A DNA stretch of 32,325 nucleotides, from NCBI GenBank assembly GCA_903891315.1, contig CAITEF010000588.1, forward strand, positions 1 to 32,325, written 5' to 3'. The notes beneath the pieces are model-generated. The model saw only the letters and a list, made by a program, of their open reading frames with translations, was not told where the DNA came from and searched no databases. Positions 3,641 through 28,896 of this stretch are shown here, piece after piece (positions within the stretch are counted from its first letter, which is position 1; each line of letters begins with the position of its first letter). The translations under genes were made by a program, and so were the position numbers. The DNA comes from an uncultured Rhodospirillales bacterium (GTDB taxonomy: Bacteria > Pseudomonadota > Alphaproteobacteria > Acetobacterales > Acetobacteraceae).

Positions 3641-4570
3641 TCACCCGGTTCGCGCCAGCGATAACATCAAAGTTTCCGCCTCGACGATGGCGTGCGCTGC
3701 ATCTGCCGCCGTGGCGTCGGCCCCAACTTCTTGTGCCAAACTCGGTTGCGCCACGAACACCGAGCCGCCGACCATAATCCGAATTTGTGGATTCCGTGAA
3801 CCGTGACGGGCGACCTCGATAGACTGTCGAAGCATGTCGAAATTCTTGAGATGCCCGAGCGAGAAACCGACAACGTCGAACCAGTTTCCAGCGACCAAAG
3901 CACGCAACTCAACAAGCGATTGGGCCTTCTCGGCGGTCACATCCCAGGACGCCCGCCGAAAGAACTGCGCCACCATCGCCAGGCCAAAACCGTGCTGTTC
4001 TCCAGGGGCTGGCAACAGCAGAATCTGGCGCGCGGGGCGGGTCATCCGCAGCCGGTTGGTTTCACCATCGGCCGTGAAACGTTGGTCGAGCATGTTCAGC
4101 ATCTTGTGCAGCCGGAACAGCCCCAGTGTGACAGCCGCGAAATCCGCGTCATCACATTCCCAAAGAACGCCGAGCGCGAGTGCCGCACCTGCGAACAATT
4201 TGGTGTGGATGTCCTCCAGCCCAATGCCGCTCTGCAGCAGTGATTCCACCAAGGATGTCGACAAGTTCTCATCGCGTTCGGTCAGCAGGAACGCGAAGGT
4301 GCGGATTTGTTCCGGATCTGGCGTCCAAACATCGCGCTCGGGCGGTTTCGGCGGCGTGGACAACGCAGCGCGATCGTTGCGATGGGCCTGAACCATGTGA
4401 GGGATAACCGCCGTCTCGATGGCTTGAGTGAGCAAAGCCAGGCGCTCCTTTCGCGTATCCCAAAACTGCGGTCCAGCCCCAGTGCGGCGCAGATACGATG
4501 AAGCCCGGTTGGATCTCTCCGACTGACCAGCACTTCCCGGCAAATGATTTGATAGTTCCGACAGGTCCAT
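3641..4570 (-). CDS. ppaA: PpaA/AerR-type antirepressor with B12-binding-like domain
   Basis: C-terminal cobalamin-binding-like fold (ILLLPAPGEQHGFGLAMVAQFFRRASWDV, VVGFSLGHLKNFDMLRQSI, IMVGGSVF). Located between ppsR and bchF, as in many PGCs. Confidence 0.88.
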   Translation of the reverse strand: MDLSELSNHLPGSAGQSERSNRASSYLRRTGAGPQFWDTRKERLALLTQAIETAVIPHMVQAHRNDRAALSTPPKPPERDVWTPDPEQIRTFAFLLTERDENLSTSLVESLLQSGIGLEDIHTKLFAGAALALGVLWECDDADFAAVTLGLFRLHKMLNMLDQRFTADGETNRLRMTRPARQILLLPAPGEQHGFGLAMVAQFFRRASWDVTAEKAQSLVELRALVAGNWFDVVGFSLGHLKNFDMLRQSIEVARHGSRNPQIRIMVGGSVFVAQPSLAQEVGADATAADAAHAIVEAETLMLSLARTG

Positions 4571-4829: not shown

Positions 4830-4847
4830 TGTCAGTCAATGTTTACA
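4830..4847. promoter_or_regulatory. PpsR/CrtJ box TGT-N12-ACA upstream of bchF
   Basis: TGTCAGTCAATGTTTACA matches the TGTN12ACA palindrome in the ppaA-bchF intergenic region. Confidence 0.8.
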
Positions 4848-4940
4848 GCCAATGTCTTCGGTTCCCTCATCAACGCCATTGATTGCAGCCCGTGGGGAAC
4901 GTCGTCAGGACGGTGCCGGGGCATGAGGAGGGCACGCCAT

Positions 4941-6733
<1,793 letters not shown>

Positions 6734-8304: not shown

Positions 8305-12832
<4,528 letters not shown>

Positions 12833-19192: not shown

Positions 19193-20404
19193 ATGAACTA
19201 CGATCTCTTCTTTACCAAGCATCTCGACGGTCTGAAGCGCGAAGGCAATTACCGCGTCTTCGCCAATCTCGAACGCAAGGCGGGCGCGTTTCCCAAGGCG
19301 AAACGACACGGCCACCGCGGCGCGTCGGAGGTCGTGGTGTGGTGCTCCAACGACTATCTCGGCATGGGTCAGCACCCGGCTGTCATCGCCGCAATGCATG
19401 CAGCCCTTGATGGCTGCGGCGCGGGTGCCGGTGGTACGCGCAACATCGCGGGCACCAACCGGCATCATGTCGAGTTGGAGGCCGAACTGGCCGATCTGCA
19501 CGGCAAGGAATCGGCCCTGTTGTTCACATCAGGCTACGTCTCGAACTGGGCGGCGATCTCCACGCTGGCCTCGATGCTGCCAAATTGCGTGATCCTGTCC
19601 GACGCGCTGAACCATGCCTCGATGATCGAGGGCATGCGGCACAGCCGGGCGCAGACCGTGGTGTGGAAACACAATGACCTGGAAGATCTGGAGCGCAAGC
19701 TGCGCGCGGTCGAGCCAGGTCGGGCGAAGCTGATCGCGTTCGAGAGTGTCTATTCGATGGATGGCGACATCGCACCGATCGGGGCGATCTGCGATCTGGC
19801 CGAGAAATATGGCGCACTGACCTATCTCGACGAGGTCCATGCGGTTGGCATGTATGGCAAGCGCGGTGGTGGTGTGTCCGAGCGTGATGGCGTCGCACAC
19901 CGCGTTGACGTGATCGAAGGCACGCTGGGCAAGGCGTTCGGCGTGGTCGGCGGCTATATCACCGGCTCGGCGGCATTGTGCGATTTCGTGCGCAGCTATG
20001 CGTCGGGTTTCATCTTTACCACCGCCTTGCCGCCGCTGGTGGCTGCCGGTGCGGTGGCGAGCATTCGCCATCTCAAGACCAGTTCGGTCGAGCGGGAATT
20101 GCAACAACGTCAAGCGTCCAAGCTGCGGCAGATGCTTGATGCTGCGGGGGTTCCGCATCTGGACAATCCCAGCCATATCGTGCCGGTGATCGTGGGCGAC
20201 CCCGTGCAGTGCAAGCAATTGTCGGACATTCTGCTGGACGAGTATGGGATTTACGTGCAGCCGATCAACTATCCGACCGTGCCGAAAGGCACCGAGCGGC
20301 TGCGTCTGACCCCGGGGCCGTTGCACACCGATTCGGACCTTGAAGATTTGGTGCACGCACTCTCGACAATCTGGTCTGCACTGCATCTGAAGCGGGCGGC
20401 CTGA
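19193..20404 (+). CDS. hemA: 5-aminolevulinate synthase HemA
   Basis: ALAS family sequence ([65 protein letters not shown]). Start set to 19193; the ORF-track start lies inside puhE. Confidence 0.96.
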
Positions 20405-20476
20405 CACAACTCTAGGCGCGTCAAGGCAGTTTGTCCGTTGCAAGGCGGGTTGACGGAGTGGACTGGGTATCTTTCG

Positions 20477-20494
20477 TGTCTCGAAGGGTTTACA
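20477..20494. promoter_or_regulatory. PpsR/CrtJ box TGT-N12-ACA upstream of ppsR2
   Basis: TGTCTCGAAGGGTTTACA in the hemA-ppsR2 intergenic region, 52 bp before the ATG. Confidence 0.8.
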
Positions 20495-20546
20495 CTCTTC
20501 GTGTCAGCGTTTTTATCAAGCCTTCATTTCCCGAATTGGGGCAAAC

Positions 20547-21956
20547 ATGTCCGGAGTTGCTGCGACGCAGCCTGACGTCACCCTGCTACTCGACCTCGAC
20601 GGCGTCATCCGTCGGGCGACGGTTGCTGACGGCTTGCCCGCCGAGGTGGCGGAGAGCTGGGTGGGACGCCCATGGACAGAGACCGTCGCGGAGGATGCCA
20701 GCGAGAAGATCAACGTCATGTTGCATGACGCTCGGACGATGGGTGTCTGCGCCTACCGGATGATCTACCAGCGCTTCCCAAATGGGCTGGAACTGCCGGT
20801 CGAATATTCCGCAATCAAGCTTGGCGACAATTCCGGCCTGATCGCCATCGGCAAGAACCAGCAGACCGTCGCCGACCTGCAGAACCGTCTGATCGCCGCC
20901 CAACAGGCGCGCGAGCAGGATTACTGGAAGCTGCGCGAGGTCGAGACTCGCTATCGCATGCTGTTCGAGACCTCCGGCGAGGTCGTGCTCGTGGTGCGTG
21001 CCGACAATCTGCGGATCGTTGAGGCCAATCTGGCGGCTCTGCGTGCGCTCAGCCTCGCCCCTGGGCAGGACTTGCTGCCGGAATTGCAGCCTTCCGAGCA
21101 GGACGTGTTCCGTGCCGTGCTCTCCCGTGTCCGCCAACAGGGCCGGGCACCGGGCATTGTGCTGCATCTCGGCGTTGATCGCGCGGCCTGGACGATGCGT
21201 GCGGCGCAGATGACAACAGAATCGCAGGATGTCTTCCTGCTGCAACTTTCGCCGATGGCGCCCACTCTCATCCCTCAAGGCACCTCGCTGCCACGCGGCC
21301 GAGCCGATCGGGTGGCGCTGCCTGTCGATGAGTTGATGGAGCGCGTGCCGGACTCCTTCGTGGTGATCGATCAGGCAGGGACTATTTTGCGCGCCAATGC
21401 TGCGTTCCTCGATCTCGTGCAGATCGGCAACGAGGGCAGCGTGCTGGGCGAAAAGATCAGCCGTTGGCTGTCGCGCCCCGGCGCGGACATGGCGGTGCTG
21501 TTGGCGACGATCCGCCGCCATCGCTATGTGCGGCTGTTCTCGACCACATTGAGCGGCGAATTGTCGTCTGATGTGGCGGTGGAGATTTCGGCGGCAGCGA
21601 GTTCTGACAACCAGCCGCGTTATATTGGCTTGTTGATACGTGATATTTCTCGTCGCATCGCGCAGGCAAATCCTGCGCCGCAGGCGACAGAGGCAATTTT
21701 AACCGGCGGCAACAACTTGCTTGCAGCTTTGGGCGCAATGGCGGATCATCTTGGCCAAACGTCCCTTCCTTCGCTCATCAAACAAACGGTGAGCGTGGTT
21801 GAGAAGCACTTTATCGAGGCGGCATTGGAACAATCTGACGGCAATAGGACGGCGACGGCTGAACTGCTCGGATTGAGCAGGCAGAGCCTCTATCTCAAGC
21901 TCAATCGCTACGGTTTGGAAGGCGGCGGTCAAGCGTCGTCGGATGATGAACCGTGA
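20547..21956 (+). CDS. ppsR2: Second PpsR-type PAS-Fis HTH transcriptional regulator (PpsR2-like)
   Basis: PAS segments (MERVPDSFVVIDQAGTILRANAAFLDLVQIG) and C-terminal FIEAALEQSDGNRTATAELLGLSRQSLYLKLNRYGL, paralogous to copy 1. Confidence 0.9.
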   Translation: MSGVAATQPDVTLLLDLDGVIRRATVADGLPAEVAESWVGRPWTETVAEDASEKINVMLHDARTMGVCAYRMIYQRFPNGLELPVEYSAIKLGDNSGLIAIGKNQQTVADLQNRLIAAQQAREQDYWKLREVETRYRMLFETSGEVVLVVRADNLRIVEANLAALRALSLAPGQDLLPELQPSEQDVFRAVLSRVRQQGRAPGIVLHLGVDRAAWTMRAAQMTTESQDVFLLQLSPMAPTLIPQGTSLPRGRADRVALPVDELMERVPDSFVVIDQAGTILRANAAFLDLVQIGNEGSVLGEKISRWLSRPGADMAVLLATIRRHRYVRLFSTTLSGELSSDVAVEISAAASSDNQPRYIGLLIRDISRRIAQANPAPQATEAILTGGNNLLAALGAMADHLGQTSLPSLIKQTVSVVEKHFIEAALEQSDGNRTATAELLGLSRQSLYLKLNRYGLEGGGQASSDDEP

Positions 21957-24162
21957 TACGCGTCAGCAGCCAAGCCGTGAGATAGTCCTCCATTCGGAGG
22001 CGCTGACGCCCTCGTTTGGCGCGGCCACGCTGACGAATTGTGAGCGGGAACAAATCCATCTCGCTGGCTCCATTCAGCCGCATGGCGCGCTGATGATGCT
22101 GCGTGAGCCGGAATTGACCATCCAGCAGGCGAGCGAAAATCTGCTCGAATTTCTGTCTTTGCAGTCGGACCAAGTGATTGGCCGCGGGCTCGGCGAATTG
22201 GCGCCGGAACTTGATGAAGCCGTGCGCAGCCTCTTGGAAGAACGCTTGGAGGACATGCCGTTCGCCGTGCGGGCCTTTCTTGAGTCTGTGGGTCCGCTTG
22301 ATGTGCTTGTCCATCGCCCGCCCTCCGGTGGTTTGCTTGTCGAGCTGGAGCGCTCGGGCCCGCCTGTGTCGCTGGCGGGCTCCGTTGACGCCGGTTTGCG
22401 CAGCATTGTCGGCGCCACCACGCTGCAAGGGCTGTGCGACGAGGCTGCTTGGGTGTTTCGTGAGTTGTCCGGCTATGACCGCGTGATGGTCTATCGCTTC
22501 GACGGCGACGGCAACGGCGAGGTGATTGCCGAGCAGCGCCGGGCCGATCTGGAGGCGCTGCTCGGGAACCGTTATCCGGCGTCCGACATTCCGCAGATTG
22601 CCCGCAAGCTCTATGTGCGCAACCGCGTTCGTGTTCTGGTTGATGTCAACTACGTTCCCGCTGCGATTCGACCGCGTCGTTTGCCGAACGATGACCGTGA
22701 CATTGACATGTCAATGTCAGTGCTGCGCAGCCCGTCGCCCATCCATGTGCAATATCTGAAGAACATGGGGGTCAGTGCGACGCTGGTGGTGTCGCTGATG
22801 GTCGATGGCAGGCTATGGGGCCTGATTTCCTGCCACCATTATGCGCCGCGCGAGGTGCATTTCGAGGCGCGCACCGTTTGCGAATTGCTCGCCGAGGCGG
22901 TGGCGACCAGGATCGCAGCCCTTGAGAGCTTCGTGCAGAGCCAGGTTGAGCTTTCGGTGCGCAGGCTGGAGCGGCGGGTTATTGATTCGATTGCGCGTGA
23001 GGGCGATTGGCGGGTGGCACTGTTCGACGGCTCGCGGGCGATATTGACGCCGGTCGGTGCGGTCGGTGCGGCGCTGCTTTATGAAGATCAATGCCTGTCG
23101 GTTGGTGATGTGCCGAGCACGCAGAAGCTGCGTGAGATCGGCCAATGGCTGGACGATCAGGCGCTGCTCGGTGTGCCGCGCAGCCCGGTGTTCGCCACCT
23201 CGGCACTGTCCACCGATGCTCCGCGTTTTGCCTCGATCATCGATGTGGCCAGCGGCATGGTGGCGGCGACCATCTCGACCGCACCCGGCGAATATCTGCT
23301 CTGGTTCCGCCCTGAGCAGGTGCGCACGGTGGTCTGGGGCGGCGATCCGACCAAGCCGATGGAGGTCGGCAATGATCCGATGACCTTGTCGCCACGCCGC
23401 TCCTTCGCGCAATGGCACCAGCGCGTCGAAGGCACTTCGGCAGCGTGGTCGGCGGTGGAGCTCACTGCGGCACGGCTGATCGGGGAGACTGTCTCCGATG
23501 TCATCTTGCAAGTCCGCGCCGTGCGCATGCTGGTGGCCGAGGAACAGCTGCGCCATGTCACCCGTGGGGTGGCGGAATCTGACGAGCCGGTGCTGATCGC
23601 CGATGAGACCGGGCGGCTGATGCTGGTCAACCCGGCCTTTCGGCGGCTGCTGCCGCAGGGAGTCGAGCCGCCATATCATTTCGATCACCTGCCAGAACTG
23701 TTCCATGAGCCACGCGACGTGCGGCGGCGGCTCGGTGATTTGCGCCTTGCCCAGCGGGCTTGGCGGGGCGAAGTGCTGTTGCGGGTGGGCGATGATGGCG
23801 ATCAGCCCTTGCTGGTGCGCGCTGATCCGGTGCTGTCGGCACCGGATCGCGTGCTGGGCTATGTGATCCTGTTCACCGATCTGACCGACCGCAAAATGGC
23901 CGAGAACGCCAGACGCGCCTTTCAGGCGGGTATTGCCGAGGGTCAGCGGGTGGCTTCCGCCCGGCTCGAAACCCAAGCCGGGATGGCGGCGCGCAATCTG
24001 CTGGCCTCGCTGTTGGAGAATGCACAACTCGCCGCGATGGAGATCACGGACGGTGTGGATGCGCTCGGCATCGCGCACCGGCTAGAGAGTGTCCGCGCCT
24101 CGGTGCAGCGCGCTGCCGAGATGATGGAGCGGCTGATCCGTCACGCCGACAGGCTGGATTGA
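21943..24162 (+). CDS. bphP: Bacteriophytochrome (PAS-GAF-PHY-PAS, no recognizable histidine kinase domain)
   Basis: N-terminal biliverdin Cys33 in LTNCEREQIHLAGSIQPHGALM; GAF motifs YPASDIPQIARKLYVRNRVR and DIDMSMSVLRSPSPIHVQYLKNMGV; PHY tongue PRRSF. Overlaps ppsR2 by 14 nt. Confidence 0.95.
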   Translation: MMNRDTRQQPSREIVLHSEALTPSFGAATLTNCEREQIHLAGSIQPHGALMMLREPELTIQQASENLLEFLSLQSDQVIGRGLGELAPELDEAVRSLLEERLEDMPFAVRAFLESVGPLDVLVHRPPSGGLLVELERSGPPVSLAGSVDAGLRSIVGATTLQGLCDEAAWVFRELSGYDRVMVYRFDGDGNGEVIAEQRRADLEALLGNRYPASDIPQIARKLYVRNRVRVLVDVNYVPAAIRPRRLPNDDRDIDMSMSVLRSPSPIHVQYLKNMGVSATLVVSLMVDGRLWGLISCHHYAPREVHFEARTVCELLAEAVATRIAALESFVQSQVELSVRRLERRVIDSIAREGDWRVALFDGSRAILTPVGAVGAALLYEDQCLSVGDVPSTQKLREIGQWLDDQALLGVPRSPVFATSALSTDAPRFASIIDVASGMVAATISTAPGEYLLWFRPEQVRTVVWGGDPTKPMEVGNDPMTLSPRRSFAQWHQRVEGTSAAWSAVELTAARLIGETVSDVILQVRAVRMLVAEEQLRHVTRGVAESDEPVLIADETGRLMLVNPAFRRLLPQGVEPPYHFDHLPELFHEPRDVRRRLGDLRLAQRAWRGEVLLRVGDDGDQPLLVRADPVLSAPDRVLGYVILFTDLTDRKMAENARRAFQAGIAEGQRVASARLETQAGMAARNLLASLLENAQLAAMEITDGVDALGIAHRLESVRASVQRAAEMMERLIRHADRLD
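22698..22719. repeat. 22-bp perfect palindrome TGACATTGACATGTCAATGTCA within bphP
   Basis: Arms 22698-22708 and 22709-22719 are exact reverse complements. Confidence 0.9.
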
Positions 24163-24827
24163 CCGAAGCCGCGACCCACAGCTTCGCCGCGCGCCTGTCC
24201 GAGGCCACGCACCATCTCCATGTCGAGGCGGAGCGCAGTGGCGTGATGGCCGAGTTGATGCGCGGGCGCGCCACGGCTGGGACCTACGCGCTGCTGTTGC
24301 GCAACTTGTTGCCGGCCTATCAGGCGCTGGAGGCCGGGCTGGAGCGGCTGCGGGAGACGACGATGATCCGGCCGTTTGCCCGCTCGGAAGTCTATCGCTC
24401 GGCGGCGATCAAATCCGATCTGGTGCAACTGGCCGGGGCTGATTGGTCCGCGGGTTTGCGGGAGTTGCCGGAGGCGGTGCGCTATGCCGATGTTGTGCGG
24501 CTTGCGGCGGACGGTTCGGGTGAGCGCCTGATTGCGCATGCCTATACGCGCACCTTGGGCGATCTCTCTGGCGGGCAGATCGTCGCCCGGCTGCTGGAGC
24601 GGGCGCTTGGGGAGACGGCCAACCATCTGGAATTTCATCATTTTCCACTGATTGACGACATCACGTCATTCAAGGCGGGATACCGGGCGTCACTCAATGC
24701 CGCCGGTGCCGCCTTGACCGAACCAGCTTCGGTGTTGCGCGAGGCGCAATTGGCGTTTCAGCTCAACATCGCCGTCTCCCGGGCGGTGGCCAACGAGTCC
24801 ACCGCCCTTCTTGCTGCCAACGACTAG
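24159..24827 (+). CDS. bphO: Heme oxygenase (biliverdin-producing, BphO/HmuO type)
   Basis: Heme oxygenase features: ATHHLHVEAERSG (proximal His region) and AYTRTLGDLSGGQIVARLLERALG (distal helix GDLSGGQ). TTG start overlaps the bphP stop. Confidence 0.92.
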   Translation: MTEAATHSFAARLSEATHHLHVEAERSGVMAELMRGRATAGTYALLLRNLLPAYQALEAGLERLRETTMIRPFARSEVYRSAAIKSDLVQLAGADWSAGLRELPEAVRYADVVRLAADGSGERLIAHAYTRTLGDLSGGQIVARLLERALGETANHLEFHHFPLIDDITSFKAGYRASLNAAGAALTEPASVLREAQLAFQLNIAVSRAVANESTALLAAND

Positions 24828-24843
24828 ACTGACCGGAGTTTGC

Positions 24844-25869
24844 ATGGCCCTGGCTTTCCCATTTTCTGCCATCGCTGGTCAGGAAGAAATGAAACAGGCG
24901 ATCTTGATCGCCGCCATTGATCCGGGTGTGGGCGGTGTGCTCGCCTTTGGTGATCGCGGCACCGGCAAATCCACCACCGTGCGCGCGCTCGCCGCCCTGC
25001 TGCCGCAGATGCAGGCGGTCGCGGGATGCCGCTACCGCTGTGATCCGGCGCAGGCCAGCCGCCTGTGCAGCGATTGCCGCGAACGTCGCACGCACGGGCC
25101 ACTGCCGGTCGAGACGGTCTCAGTGCCGGTGGTTGATCTGCCGCTTGGAGCCTCGGAGGACCGGGTGGTTGGCGCGCTTGATCTGGAGCGGGCGTTGGCG
25201 AAGGGCGAGAAGGCGTTCGAGCCCGGCCTACTGGCGCGTGCCAATCGCGGTTTTCTCTATGTCGATGAGGTGAACCTGCTGGAGGACCATCTCGTCGATC
25301 TGCTGATCGACGTGGCGGCGTCCGGCGAGAATGTGGTGGAGCGTGACGGGCTGTCGGTGCGCCATCCCGCGCGTTTCGTGTTGGTCGGCTCGGGCAATCC
25401 GGAAGAGGGTGAGTTGCGGCCGCAATTGCTTGATCGGTTCGGCATGTCGGTTGAGGTCAAGACGCCCACCGATCTCGCCACCCGCATCCTGGTGGTGCGG
25501 CGGCGAGATGCATTCGACCGCGATCCGGAGGCGTTCATTGCCGCGTGGGCGGCAGAAGATGCGACGTTGCGGGCGAAGATTGTCGCGGCCCATGCGCATC
25601 TGCCGACAGTGGACGTGCCGGATTCGGTGTTGGAATCGGCGTCGCGCCTGTGCATCGCGCTCGGCACTGATGGTCTGCGCGCCGAACTCACGCTGATGCG
25701 CACCGCCCGCGCGCTGGCGGCGTTGCATGGGCGGGATGAGGTGACTGAGGCCGAGTTGCGCGAGGTGGCACCCTCCGCGTTGCGGCATCGCCTGCGCCGC
25801 AATCCGCTGGATGATTCCGGCTCGACCGTCCGTGTTGAGCGCGCTTTGGCGGAATTGTTCGGCGCATGA
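24844..25869 (+). CDS. bchI: Magnesium chelatase ATPase subunit I (BchI)
   Basis: AAA+ motifs FGDRGTGKSTTVRALAALLP and GFLYVDEVNLLEDHLVDLLIDVAASGENVVERDG. Start set at ATG 24844. Confidence 0.97.
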   Translation: MALAFPFSAIAGQEEMKQAILIAAIDPGVGGVLAFGDRGTGKSTTVRALAALLPQMQAVAGCRYRCDPAQASRLCSDCRERRTHGPLPVETVSVPVVDLPLGASEDRVVGALDLERALAKGEKAFEPGLLARANRGFLYVDEVNLLEDHLVDLLIDVAASGENVVERDGLSVRHPARFVLVGSGNPEEGELRPQLLDRFGMSVEVKTPTDLATRILVVRRRDAFDRDPEAFIAAWAAEDATLRAKIVAAHAHLPTVDVPDSVLESASRLCIALGTDGLRAELTLMRTARALAALHGRDEVTEAELREVAPSALRHRLRRNPLDDSGSTVRVERALAELFGA

Positions 25870-27590
25870 GCGAGGCGCCGTCACCGGCGCAGATGGTCGC
25901 CGCGTTGCTGGCGGTCGACCCCCAGGGGCTTGGCGGGGTGGTGCTGCGCGGCATGCCTGGGCCGGGGCGTGACGGGTTTCTGGCGGCTCTGCGGGACGCG
26001 CTGCCGGAGGAGACGCCGTGGCGACGTCTGCCGCTGTCGATCTCGGATTCCCGATTGCTCGGCGGGATGGATCTTTCGGCCACGTTGCGGGCGGGGCGGC
26101 CGATATCCGAGCGTGGGCTGCTGGCGGAGGCGGATGGTGGGATCGTCATCGCCGCCATGGCTGAGCGCCTGACCCCGCTCACCACCGCCCAGCTTTGCGC
26201 CGCCCTTGATCGTGGCATGGTCGTCGCCGCGCGTGAGGGGATTGGCGTGGAGCACGCGGCCAATATTGCGGTGGTGGCGCTCGATGAAGGCATCGAGGAG
26301 GGCGAGATCGCCCCTTCTGCGTTGCGGGATCGGCTGGCATTCCTGGTGGAGACCGACCGTCTGGCGACGCCGTCTGCCGCGACGCGTGATGAGGTTCTGA
26401 TGGCGCGGTTGCGGCTTGCGCATGTGGAAATCTCTGATGACGCCATTGCCGCGCTGGCAGCAACCTCGCTGGTCCTTGGCATCGACTCACTGCGGGCACC
26501 GCTGTTGGCGGTGCGGGCGGCACGGGCGCAGGCGGCGTTGGCGGGGCGTGATGTGGTGAGCGAGGAAGATATCAGCCTCGCCGGCGCCTTGGTGCTCGCC
26601 CCGCGTGCGACGCGGATTCCGCAATCGGAGCATGAAGAGGCTGAGCCACCGCCGCCCGAGCCTGAGACTCCGCCGGAGAATTCTGACAAGCAACCGGACC
26701 CCGCGCAGGGCCAGATGGAAGATCGCGTGCTGGAGGCCATCAAGGCCGCGATTCCCGCTGGATTGTTGGCGATGCTGCAAGCCGCAGCGCTGCGCAATCA
26801 GCGGGCGAAAACCGGCGGCAAGGCCGGGGCGTGGCAGAAATCCGGCAAGCGTGGACGTCCCGGCAGCACGCGGCGGGGCGAGCCGGGTCCAAAAGCGCGG
26901 CTCAATCTGATCGAGACCCTGCGCACGGCCGCACCGTGGCAACCGCTGCGTCGCGCCGAGAGCGCGAGTCTGGCGGCAGTGCTGGTGCGGCCGGAAGATT
27001 TCATGGTCACCCGTTTCCGCCAGCGTCAGGAACGCACGACGATCTTCGTGGTGGACGCCTCCGGCTCACTCGCCGCCAACCGGTTGGCCGAGGCGAAGGG
27101 GGCGGTCGAATTGCTGCTCGCCGAGTGTTACGTGCGCCGCGATCAGGTGGCGATGATCGCGTTTCGCGGCAAAGGTGCGGAGATTTTGCTGCCGCCGACC
27201 CGCTCGCTGGTGCGTGCCAAGCGGGCCTTGCGGCAATTGCCGGGTGGTGGCGGGACACCGCTGGCGGCGGGGATTGCTTCGTCGGCGGCGTTGGCCGAGC
27301 AGATTGCCCGCAAGGGGGGGGCGCCTGCCATCGTGCTGCTCACCGATGGCAGTGCGAACATTGCCCGCGACACCTCCCCTGGACGCATCCAGGCCGGGCT
27401 GGACGCAATGGAGGAGGCGCGGGGGTTGCGTGGGGCCGGGCGCTGCAGCCTGGTGGTCGACACCTCACAGCGCCCGGCAGTTGCGGCGCAAAATTTGGCT
27501 GACGCGATGGGTGCGGTTTATCTGCCGATGCCGTATGCAGATGCCACCGGCCTCTCCCGTGCCGTGCAATCCGTATTGCCCAAAGATTAG
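25866..27590 (+). CDS. bchD: Magnesium chelatase subunit D (BchD)
   Basis: Degenerate AAA+ N-terminus, acidic/proline linker (EHEEAEPPPPEPETPPENSDK), C-terminal VWA domain (TTIFVVDASGSLAANRLAEAKGAVELLL). ATGA overlap with bchI. Confidence 0.96.
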   Translation: MSEAPSPAQMVAALLAVDPQGLGGVVLRGMPGPGRDGFLAALRDALPEETPWRRLPLSISDSRLLGGMDLSATLRAGRPISERGLLAEADGGIVIAAMAERLTPLTTAQLCAALDRGMVVAAREGIGVEHAANIAVVALDEGIEEGEIAPSALRDRLAFLVETDRLATPSAATRDEVLMARLRLAHVEISDDAIAALAATSLVLGIDSLRAPLLAVRAARAQAALAGRDVVSEEDISLAGALVLAPRATRIPQSEHEEAEPPPPEPETPPENSDKQPDPAQGQMEDRVLEAIKAAIPAGLLAMLQAAALRNQRAKTGGKAGAWQKSGKRGRPGSTRRGEPGPKARLNLIETLRTAAPWQPLRRAESASLAAVLVRPEDFMVTRFRQRQERTTIFVVDASGSLAANRLAEAKGAVELLLAECYVRRDQVAMIAFRGKGAEILLPPTRSLVRAKRALRQLPGGGGTPLAAGIASSAALAEQIARKGGAPAIVLLTDGSANIARDTSPGRIQAGLDAMEEARGLRGAGRCSLVVDTSQRPAVAAQNLADAMGAVYLPMPYADATGLSRAVQSVLPKD

Positions 27591-27598
27591 GCATCACT

Positions 27599-28465
27599 AT
27601 GTCTCGCAGGCTTGACTGGACCACCGACGGCGCTGATTGGCCCAATCGCGCAGCAAGTCGCTTCGTCACCGCGTCGGGATTCGCTTGGCATGTGCAAATC
27701 ATGGGAAGCGGCCCGGTGCTGCTGCTTTTGCATGGCACCGGTGCCTCGACGCATTCCTGGCGCGATCTGATGCCGCTGTTGGCGGCGCACTTCACCGTGG
27801 TCGCACCCGATCTGCCTAGCCACGGTTTCACCGACCTGCCCGAACGCCGCCAGATGTCGCTGCCCGGCATGGCACATGCCGTCTGTTCCCTGCTGGTCGC
27901 GCTGGACATCGTGCCTGAGATCGTGGTCGGACACTCCGCCGGAGCCGCGATTGCAACCCGCATGGTGCTCGACGGCGTGCTGACGCCGAAGCTGCTGGTC
28001 TGCCTGAACGGCGCGCTGCTGCCACTTGCGTCGATGCCGTCGGAATTGTTCTCGCCGCTCGCCCGCGTGATGGCGGCACTGCCCTTCATGCCGCGAATCG
28101 CCGCGTGGCAGGCCGGATCGCAGGGCTCGGTGGAGCGCCTGCTGGAAGGCACTGGATCGACGGTCGACGCTCGCGGCGTGGCGCTCTATCGCCGTCTGGT
28201 GTCCAATCCCGGCCATGTCGCGGGGGCGTTGGAGATGATGGCGTGCTGGAATCTGCGCGATTTGCCGCGAGAATTGCCGAAACTGGCGGTGCCGTTGTTG
28301 CTTATCGTCGGCGCCAATGACCGCACCATCCCTAGCGATGACGCTCTGCGCATCCAGCGCATGTTGCCCTCGGCGCGCGTTGTGACGCTCTCAGGTCTCG
28401 GCCATCTCGCGCATGAGGAGGCTCCGGTGGAGCATGCGAGGCTGATCATCGAGGCCACCGCATGA
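27599..28465 (+). CDS. bchO: Alpha/beta hydrolase BchO
   Basis: LLLLHGTGASTHSWRDLMPLLAAHFTVVAPDLPSHGFTD and nucleophile motif VVGHSAGAAIA. Downstream of bchD. Confidence 0.93.
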   Translation: MSRRLDWTTDGADWPNRAASRFVTASGFAWHVQIMGSGPVLLLLHGTGASTHSWRDLMPLLAAHFTVVAPDLPSHGFTDLPERRQMSLPGMAHAVCSLLVALDIVPEIVVGHSAGAAIATRMVLDGVLTPKLLVCLNGALLPLASMPSELFSPLARVMAALPFMPRIAAWQAGSQGSVERLLEGTGSTVDARGVALYRRLVSNPGHVAGALEMMACWNLRDLPRELPKLAVPLLLIVGANDRTIPSDDALRIQRMLPSARVVTLSGLGHLAHEEAPVEHARLIIEATA

Positions 28466-28728
28466 CCGCATGGTTCACCGACGGCACCGTCTTTGCCGTC
28501 ATCCTGGCGCTGACATTGGCGGAGGCGGCGGGCTTGATCCTTTGGCATCAGCGCACCGGGCGGGGTCTTGGCGTGCTGGACGTGATTTTTCAGCTTGCCG
28601 CGGGGGCGTGTCTGCTGTTGGCGGCTTGGCTCGCATTGCGCGGCGCAAATGCCGGCTTCGTCGGATTATCGCTGGCCGCCGCTGGGGTGGCGCATCTGTT
28701 GGATTTGCGGCGAAGACTGAAGCGGTAA
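28462..28728 (+). CDS. Small (88 aa) hydrophobic membrane protein of unknown function
   Basis: ATGA overlap with the bchO stop. At least two to three hydrophobic segments, then a basic C-terminus DLRRRLKR. Confidence 0.7.
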   Translation: MTAWFTDGTVFAVILALTLAEAAGLILWHQRTGRGLGVLDVIFQLAAGACLLLAAWLALRGANAGFVGLSLAAAGVAHLLDLRRRLKR

Positions 28729-28741
28729 GGGTCGCCAAACC

Positions 28742-28833
28742 GTCACCCTGAGCGAAGCGTCAGGGGCCAGAGATCGAAGTTCCGACTTTATGACTTCGGG
28801 ATCGCGACGCCGCTGCGCGGCTCACGATGACTG
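28742..28833. repeat. REP-like structured palindromic element between the bchO operon and crtI
   Basis: Hairpins CCCTGA-gcgaagcg-TCAGGG (28746-28765) and GCCGC-tgc-GCGGC (28809-28821), plus inner arms GATCGAAGT/ACTTCGGGATC (28772-28780, 28793-28803). Confidence 0.5.
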
Positions 28834-28838
28834 GTGAA

Positions 28839-28856
28839 TGTCATATTCACATGACA
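28839..28856. promoter_or_regulatory. PpsR/CrtJ box 1 upstream of crtI
   Basis: TGTCATATTCACATGACA: TGT-N12-ACA, with symmetrical TGTCAT...ATGACA arms. Confidence 0.85.
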
Positions 28857-28878: not shown

Positions 28879-28896
28879 TGTCATGGGATGTTTACA
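28879..28896. promoter_or_regulatory. PpsR/CrtJ box 2 upstream of crtI
   Basis: TGTCATGGGATGTTTACA: TGT-N12-ACA, 40 bp downstream of box 1. Confidence 0.8.

Follow-up and report, generated by a model that had tools for sequence, protein, structure and literature searches.

Analysis of a 32,325-nucleotide stretch of DNA from an uncultured Rhodospirillales bacterium of the Acetobacteraceae (contig CAITEF010000588.1, positions 1 to 32,325, hereafter the window), a single contig from a draft genome of 4.58 Mb, revealed the genes of a predicted phytochrome-based light switch joined to the Mg-chelatase genes bchIDO. The seven plus-strand genes ppsR2-bphP-bphO-bchI-bchD-bchO-orf88 (20547-28728) probably constitute a light-controlled bacteriochlorophyll operon, expressed as one main transcript from the ppsR2 promoter, as suggested by the layout of the run and by its comparison with other genomes. 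Whilst the parts, and the PpsR2/BphP switch itself, are already known, their fusion to bchIDO is new, and in this survey it is limited to one genus.

The run commences with ppsR2 (20547-21956), encoding a PAS-HTH repressor of the CrtJ/PpsR family (TIGR02040, 431 bits, cut-off 275), followed by bphP (21943-24162), the product of which is a type 3 bacteriophytochrome with PAS-GAF-PHY-PAS9 domains and a HOS-like C-terminus (Pfam PAS_2/GAF/PHY/PAS). The ATG of bphP at 21943 creates a 14-nt overlap with ppsR2, and its stop codon, ending at 24162, is overlapped as TTGA by bphO (24159-24827), which encodes a heme oxygenase for biliverdin synthesis (PF01126, 168 bits, cut-off 23); the TTG start of bphO at 24159 was placed, presumptively, by the conserved start position among relatives. 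The ATG of bchI, encoding the Mg-chelatase ATPase subunit I (24844-25869; TIGR02030, 518 bits), begins 16 nt past the bphO stop. It is followed by bchD, encoding Mg-chelatase subunit D (25866-27590; PRK13406, 741 bits), through an ATGA overlap, and, after a further 8 nt, by bchO, encoding the alpha/beta hydrolase of the Mg-chelatase operon (27599-28465; TIGR03056, 315 bits), such that the three equivalogs of bchIDO are all present and in order. A last ATGA overlap joins bchO to orf88 (28462-28728), an 88-aa hydrophobic, membrane-like ORF with no match in Pfam or NCBIfam. An earlier reading of the window, made from the sequence alone, had listed these genes, overlaps and gaps, and all are present. 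It had also held that they leave no room for an internal terminator; the junctions are tight, but this is no proof, since promoters and terminators can lie within genes.

Seven relatives of the same genus (G001-G007) were compared with the window. The order hemA-ppsR2-bphP-bphO-bchI-bchD-bchO-orf88 was found on one contig in G002, G003 and G007, and orf88 was kept 3' of bchO across the genus (tblastn identities of 44-67% in G002, G003, G005, G006 and G007). The bphO stop and the bchI ATG were separated by 16 nt in the window, 14 nt in G006 and 2 nt in each of G002, G003 and G007, and this spacing of 2-16 nt was retained despite a large divergence of bphO (47-56% identity). Assembly error, a binning artefact or chance as the source of the order was ruled out by its recurrence in other genomes. 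The coupling of ppsR2-bphP-bphO to bchIDO, which the sequence-only reading had singled out, is thus real and conserved in this genus, with the close bphO-bchI spacing in five genomes, but it is lineage-specific: other alphaproteobacteria place the module elsewhere, and usually carry bphO on the opposite strand.

The binding site of PpsR/CrtJ is TGTN12ACA (PMC6899989, PMC6199135). Five such palindromes were found in the window, two near the bchF start, one before ppsR2 and two before crtI; this count is unremarkable (2.8 expected; at least five in 15 of 100 shuffles), hence the evidence rests on position and conservation. The 142-nt gap between the end of hemA (20404) and the ppsR2 start contains the ppsR2 promoter region, in which a promoter-like conserved block on the plus strand (20467-20507) carries the palindrome TGTCTCGAAGGGTTTACA (20477-20494), and the remaining intergenic sequence does not align across the genus. 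In each of the five same-genus genomes with both a photosynthesis cluster and the module, a palindrome stood at -70 or -71 relative to ppsR2, the background being 0.05 per 330 bp. A PpsR matrix, built from nine sites only, gave scores of 12-22 before ppsR2, compared with 90th and 95th percentiles of 7.2 and 8.4 for random 300-mers. In every same-genus locus that could be read there, the 300 bp preceding bphP, bphO and bchI yielded no TGTN12ACA, and the matrix scan upstream of bphO and bchI returned weak best scores only (1.9-5.1 for bchI, against the random 90th percentile of 7.2). A single PpsR-controlled transcript predicts a sole palindrome before ppsR2 and none before bphO or bchI, and the pattern of detected sites fits a putative single point of PpsR control over ppsR2 to bchO. 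Across loci drawn from the class, a PpsR palindrome lay within 300 bp before bchI in 9 of 26.

Only a ribosome-binding-like stretch, and no promoter-like block, aligned 5' of bchI across the genus. A sigma-70 consensus scan of the region was at chance level (two sites versus 1.6 expected), and neither site fell at a junction between genes of the run; conservation was therefore used to judge promoters. The only candidate for a bphO/bchI terminator, a 9-bp GC hairpin in the 3' end of bphO (24781-24807), was rejected: it lacks a T-run, folds no better than shuffled sequence (z -1.0) and lies in a stretch specific to the window.

PpsR2 matched the PpsR/CrtJ equivalog TIGR02040, with an N-Q-PAS-PAS-HTH layout and HTH_8 and PAS matches in Pfam. 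It has a single cysteine, at residue 68, and an alignment of the HTH placed a phenylalanine where PpsR1 carries C439; lacking the redox cysteine in its HTH and grouping in the tree with BphP-linked PpsR2 proteins, it is of the light-controlled PpsR2 type, not the redox type. The division between PpsR1 with an HTH cysteine and PpsR2 without it is known from wild Rhodopseudomonas palustris strains (PMC6899989). The best PDB match of BphP was 4gw9, the RpBphP1 crystal chain (738 bits), and BphP retains the biliverdin Cys33, PASDIP, the chromophore His in PIHVQY and the PRRSF tongue. It has no kinase domain, and its HOS-like end, matched to the two-helix HOS by sequence alignment only, shares 39 of 84 and 42 of 84 residues with those of Rhodopseudomonas and Bradyrhizobium, respectively, consistent with the type 3 RpBphP1 class, the namesake of which binds RpPpsR2 upon far-red light (PMC6899989, PMC6199135). 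BphO has the PF01126 fold and intact catalytic motifs, including the invariant proximal H21 and the distal-helix GDLSGG (motif GDLxGG). It is encoded by the sole PF01126 heme oxygenase gene found in the genome (G000), and is hence the only such enzyme found to supply either of its two phytochromes. The second phytochrome, with an HWE kinase and a receiver domain, is encoded at L022 819-3452 (G000:C3).

The mechanism that we propose would begin at the promoter just 5' of ppsR2, which bears the PpsR palindrome and would drive ppsR2 through orf88. In the dark, PpsR2 would repress its own operon. BphO would produce the biliverdin bound by BphP, and far-red light would convert BphP to Pr, upon which its HOS end would bind PpsR2 and lift the repression, as expected from homology (PMC6899989). 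Light would in this way raise ppsR2, bphP, bphO and bchIDO, and with them both Mg-chelatase ATPase subunits, simultaneously, with bchH, in the bchF block, and crtIB responding via their own PpsR sites, and the action of PpsR2 on its own promoter would yield a self-limiting switch. The sequence-only reading had envisaged that the committed Mg-insertion step and hemA would be expressed together with the run. For the former, this applies to BchI and BchD but not to the third chelatase subunit, BchH, encoded at 8305-11937 within the bchF block that has PpsR sites of its own. For the latter, hemA, encoding 5-aminolevulinate synthase (ALA synthase; 19193-20404, plus strand; TIGR01821, 673 bits), is indeed just upstream, but lies before the ppsR2 promoter region, such that co-expression would need read-through.

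Several observations weigh against a single transcript controlled by light. The hemA-to-orf88 order in G006 is divided over two contigs, and the tightness of the module varies, with a bphP-bphO gap of 193 nt in G007 and a ppsR2-bphP gap of 37 nt in G003. A degenerate PpsR site would escape a search for the exact motif, although none emerged from the matrix scan either, and, as far as the sequence indicates, a promoter may lie inside bphO. The binding of BphP to PpsR2 and the response to light are predicted from homology to RpBphP1/RpPpsR2. The foremost alternative, which we regard as unlikely, is that the module came to lie between hemA and bchI by insertion into a dense photosynthesis cluster and that bchIDO is transcribed mainly from a promoter inside bphO, in which case the adjacency would have little regulatory meaning. 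In two other alphaproteobacteria (L077 and L093) hemA is directly followed by bchIDO, which indicates that the module was apparently placed between hemA and bchI, with hemA being the ancestral neighbour of bchI elsewhere. Across Proteobacteria the module adjoins several different blocks, and G005, a phototroph whose genome yielded neither a ppsR2-type nor a bphO match, has unrelated sequence after hemA and a different neighbour upstream of bchI, both contigs ending soon after. These observations suit mere packing, but the retention of 2-16 nt between bphO and bchI despite the large divergence of bphO, and the lack of either a conserved block or a PpsR site before bchI, do not.

Two relatives retain parts of the region in altered settings. 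G001 carries ppsR2-bphP-bphO beside selO (L178 9612-13862), with no acsF or bchI match in its genome, a broken PpsR palindrome (ACA to AAA) and a PpsR2 Q-linker that is short by 14 residues; this module may be a relic undergoing decay, or may serve to switch other genes. G004 has a degraded puhE with intact-looking hemA and bphO (L020 8425-10880), apparently the remnant of a photosynthesis cluster since lost; no acsF, bchI or ppsR match was found in the genome. The BphO of G002 (L017 9739-10395) fell outside the genus clade and grouped with that of G227 (support 92/83), whilst its PpsR2 and BphP were genus-typical; bphO was possibly replaced in the same slot.

A wider survey covered 54 Acetobacteraceae genomes, comprising the family members with a PpsR2-type match and all eight of this genus. 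A bphO gene was found in 24 of these, and the other 30, most of them with ppsR2-bphP, had no BphO match at E 1e-8. In nine genomes bphO directly preceded bchI on the same strand: five of the genus, and G143, G177, G114 and G287, from three sister genera. As in the window, these four have an RpBphP1-type BphP; unlike the window, their ppsR2-bphP pair is on the opposite strand, divergent from bphO-bchI, and in G177 and G114 a PpsR palindrome stands ahead of bphO, with which bphO-bchI(DO) begins. The bphO-bchI spacing was a 4-nt overlap in G177 and G114, 51 nt in G143 and 75 nt in G287. In G406 and G418, ppsR2-bphP precedes bchI on the same strand and no bphO match was found, and in G032 and G139 ppsR2 precedes bchI, with no bphP match within the stretch read.

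These arrangements raise another explanation, namely that the selected link is that of bphO to bchI and that the light sensor joined later. Under this explanation, which we consider improbable, heme oxygenase would drain heme and relieve the feedback on ALA synthase whilst Mg-chelatase draws protoporphyrin, thereby setting the heme/bacteriochlorophyll branch. It accords with the same-strand bphO-bchI of the four sister-genus genomes, which continue into bchD and bchO if the contig extends that far, and with the hemA-bphO of the G004 relic. It is opposed by the two phytochromes that the sole bphO found has to supply, and by the named genomes, which place bphO beside bphP, not bchI. A related idea, that heme oxygenase and Mg-chelatase were selected for joint production, with BphO acting at the branch besides supplying biliverdin, is scarcely less doubtful; if true, the light switch would set tetrapyrrole flow directly via one transcript.

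In the PpsR2 tree, the same-strand fusion was restricted to a single supported clade (100/100), of which the non-phototroph G001 is also a member. A single origin of all ppsR2-bchI linkages was not supported, with the linked or unlinked state changing eight times on this tree; ppsR2-bchI adjacency arose several times. The BphO tree neither supported nor opposed a shared origin of bphO-bchI in the genus and in the divergent clade. In the set of named genomes, the sole same-strand, in-order bphO-bchI pair was that of L107, a contig identical to that of G287. A search for plasmid carriage gave a single plasmid record, the ppsR of Candidatus Thiodictyon syntrophicum at 47% identity.

The nearest known system is the PpsR2-BphP circuit of R. 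palustris and Bradyrhizobium, which has the ppsR2-bphP pair and a type 3 BphP with PAS9-HOS (PMC6899989, PMC10569730), and shares with the window a PpsR2 without the HTH cysteine, a second regulator, PpsR1, encoded beside bchG/bchP, and a nearby heme oxygenase. In those organisms, however, ppsR2-bphP is part of the bchP/bchG/ppsR1 arm and bphO occupies the opposite strand, with an AerR-like gene and then bchF after it in L104, L105 and L115, whereas in the window all three genes are on the same strand and run into bchIDO; the window does not have the Bradyrhizobium-type arrangement. Placement of ppsR2-bphP near bchGP with an opposite-strand bphO also occurs in Rhodoplanes and others, and in Pseudorhodoplanes, Pelagibius and two others the order is hemA-ppsR2-bphP, again with an opposite-strand bphO. 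In Rhodobacter capsulatus, crtA-bchIDO and crtIB resemble the window in that bchIDO and crtIB are under PpsR/CrtJ via TGTN12ACA (PMC6199135), but descriptions of that operon include neither a phytochrome nor a heme oxygenase, and control is by CrtJ with AerR.

The photosynthesis cluster in the window is otherwise nearly canonical, with bchP-bchG-ppsR1 and an AerR-like gene on the minus strand and bchFNBHLM-lhaA-puhABC-orf110-acsF-puhE-hemA-ppsR2-bphP-bphO-bchIDO-orf88-crtIB on the plus strand. Two PpsR palindromes at 28839-28856 and 28879-28896 (plus strand; best matrix score 20.3) likely mark the start of the next unit, crtI-crtB. Between orf88 and crtI lies a dispersed repeat, CACCCTGAGCGAAGCGTCAGG (28744-28764), with 36 genome copies at no more than two mismatches (reversed control, 0), some forming inverted pairs about 40 nt apart. 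The AerR-like gene (3644-4570, minus strand) adjoins ppsR1, is divergent from bchF and encodes a 309-aa protein with a B12-binding domain; given its likeness to AerR, light might also act through B12 alongside the far-red input. One PpsR palindrome overlaps the annotated start of bchF (4839) and a second lies inside the bchF ORF (region 4830-4959); as the bchF family model begins at residue 39, the true start is probably downstream of 4839.

A search by term of the open-access literature gave no description of bphO adjoining bchI, which is weak evidence of absence, and a paper on Acetobacteraceae phylogeny (PMC10715153) does not mention any of these genes. Model phototrophs keep the phytochrome switch apart from the bchIDO genes, whereas in the window a sensor, a repressor, a chromophore enzyme and two Mg-chelatase subunits are found in one run with one detected PpsR entry point. 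The run offers a natural, compact system in which control of the heme/bacteriochlorophyll branch by light could be tested, and the multiple placements of the module near bchI provide material for asking whether such linkages are selected.

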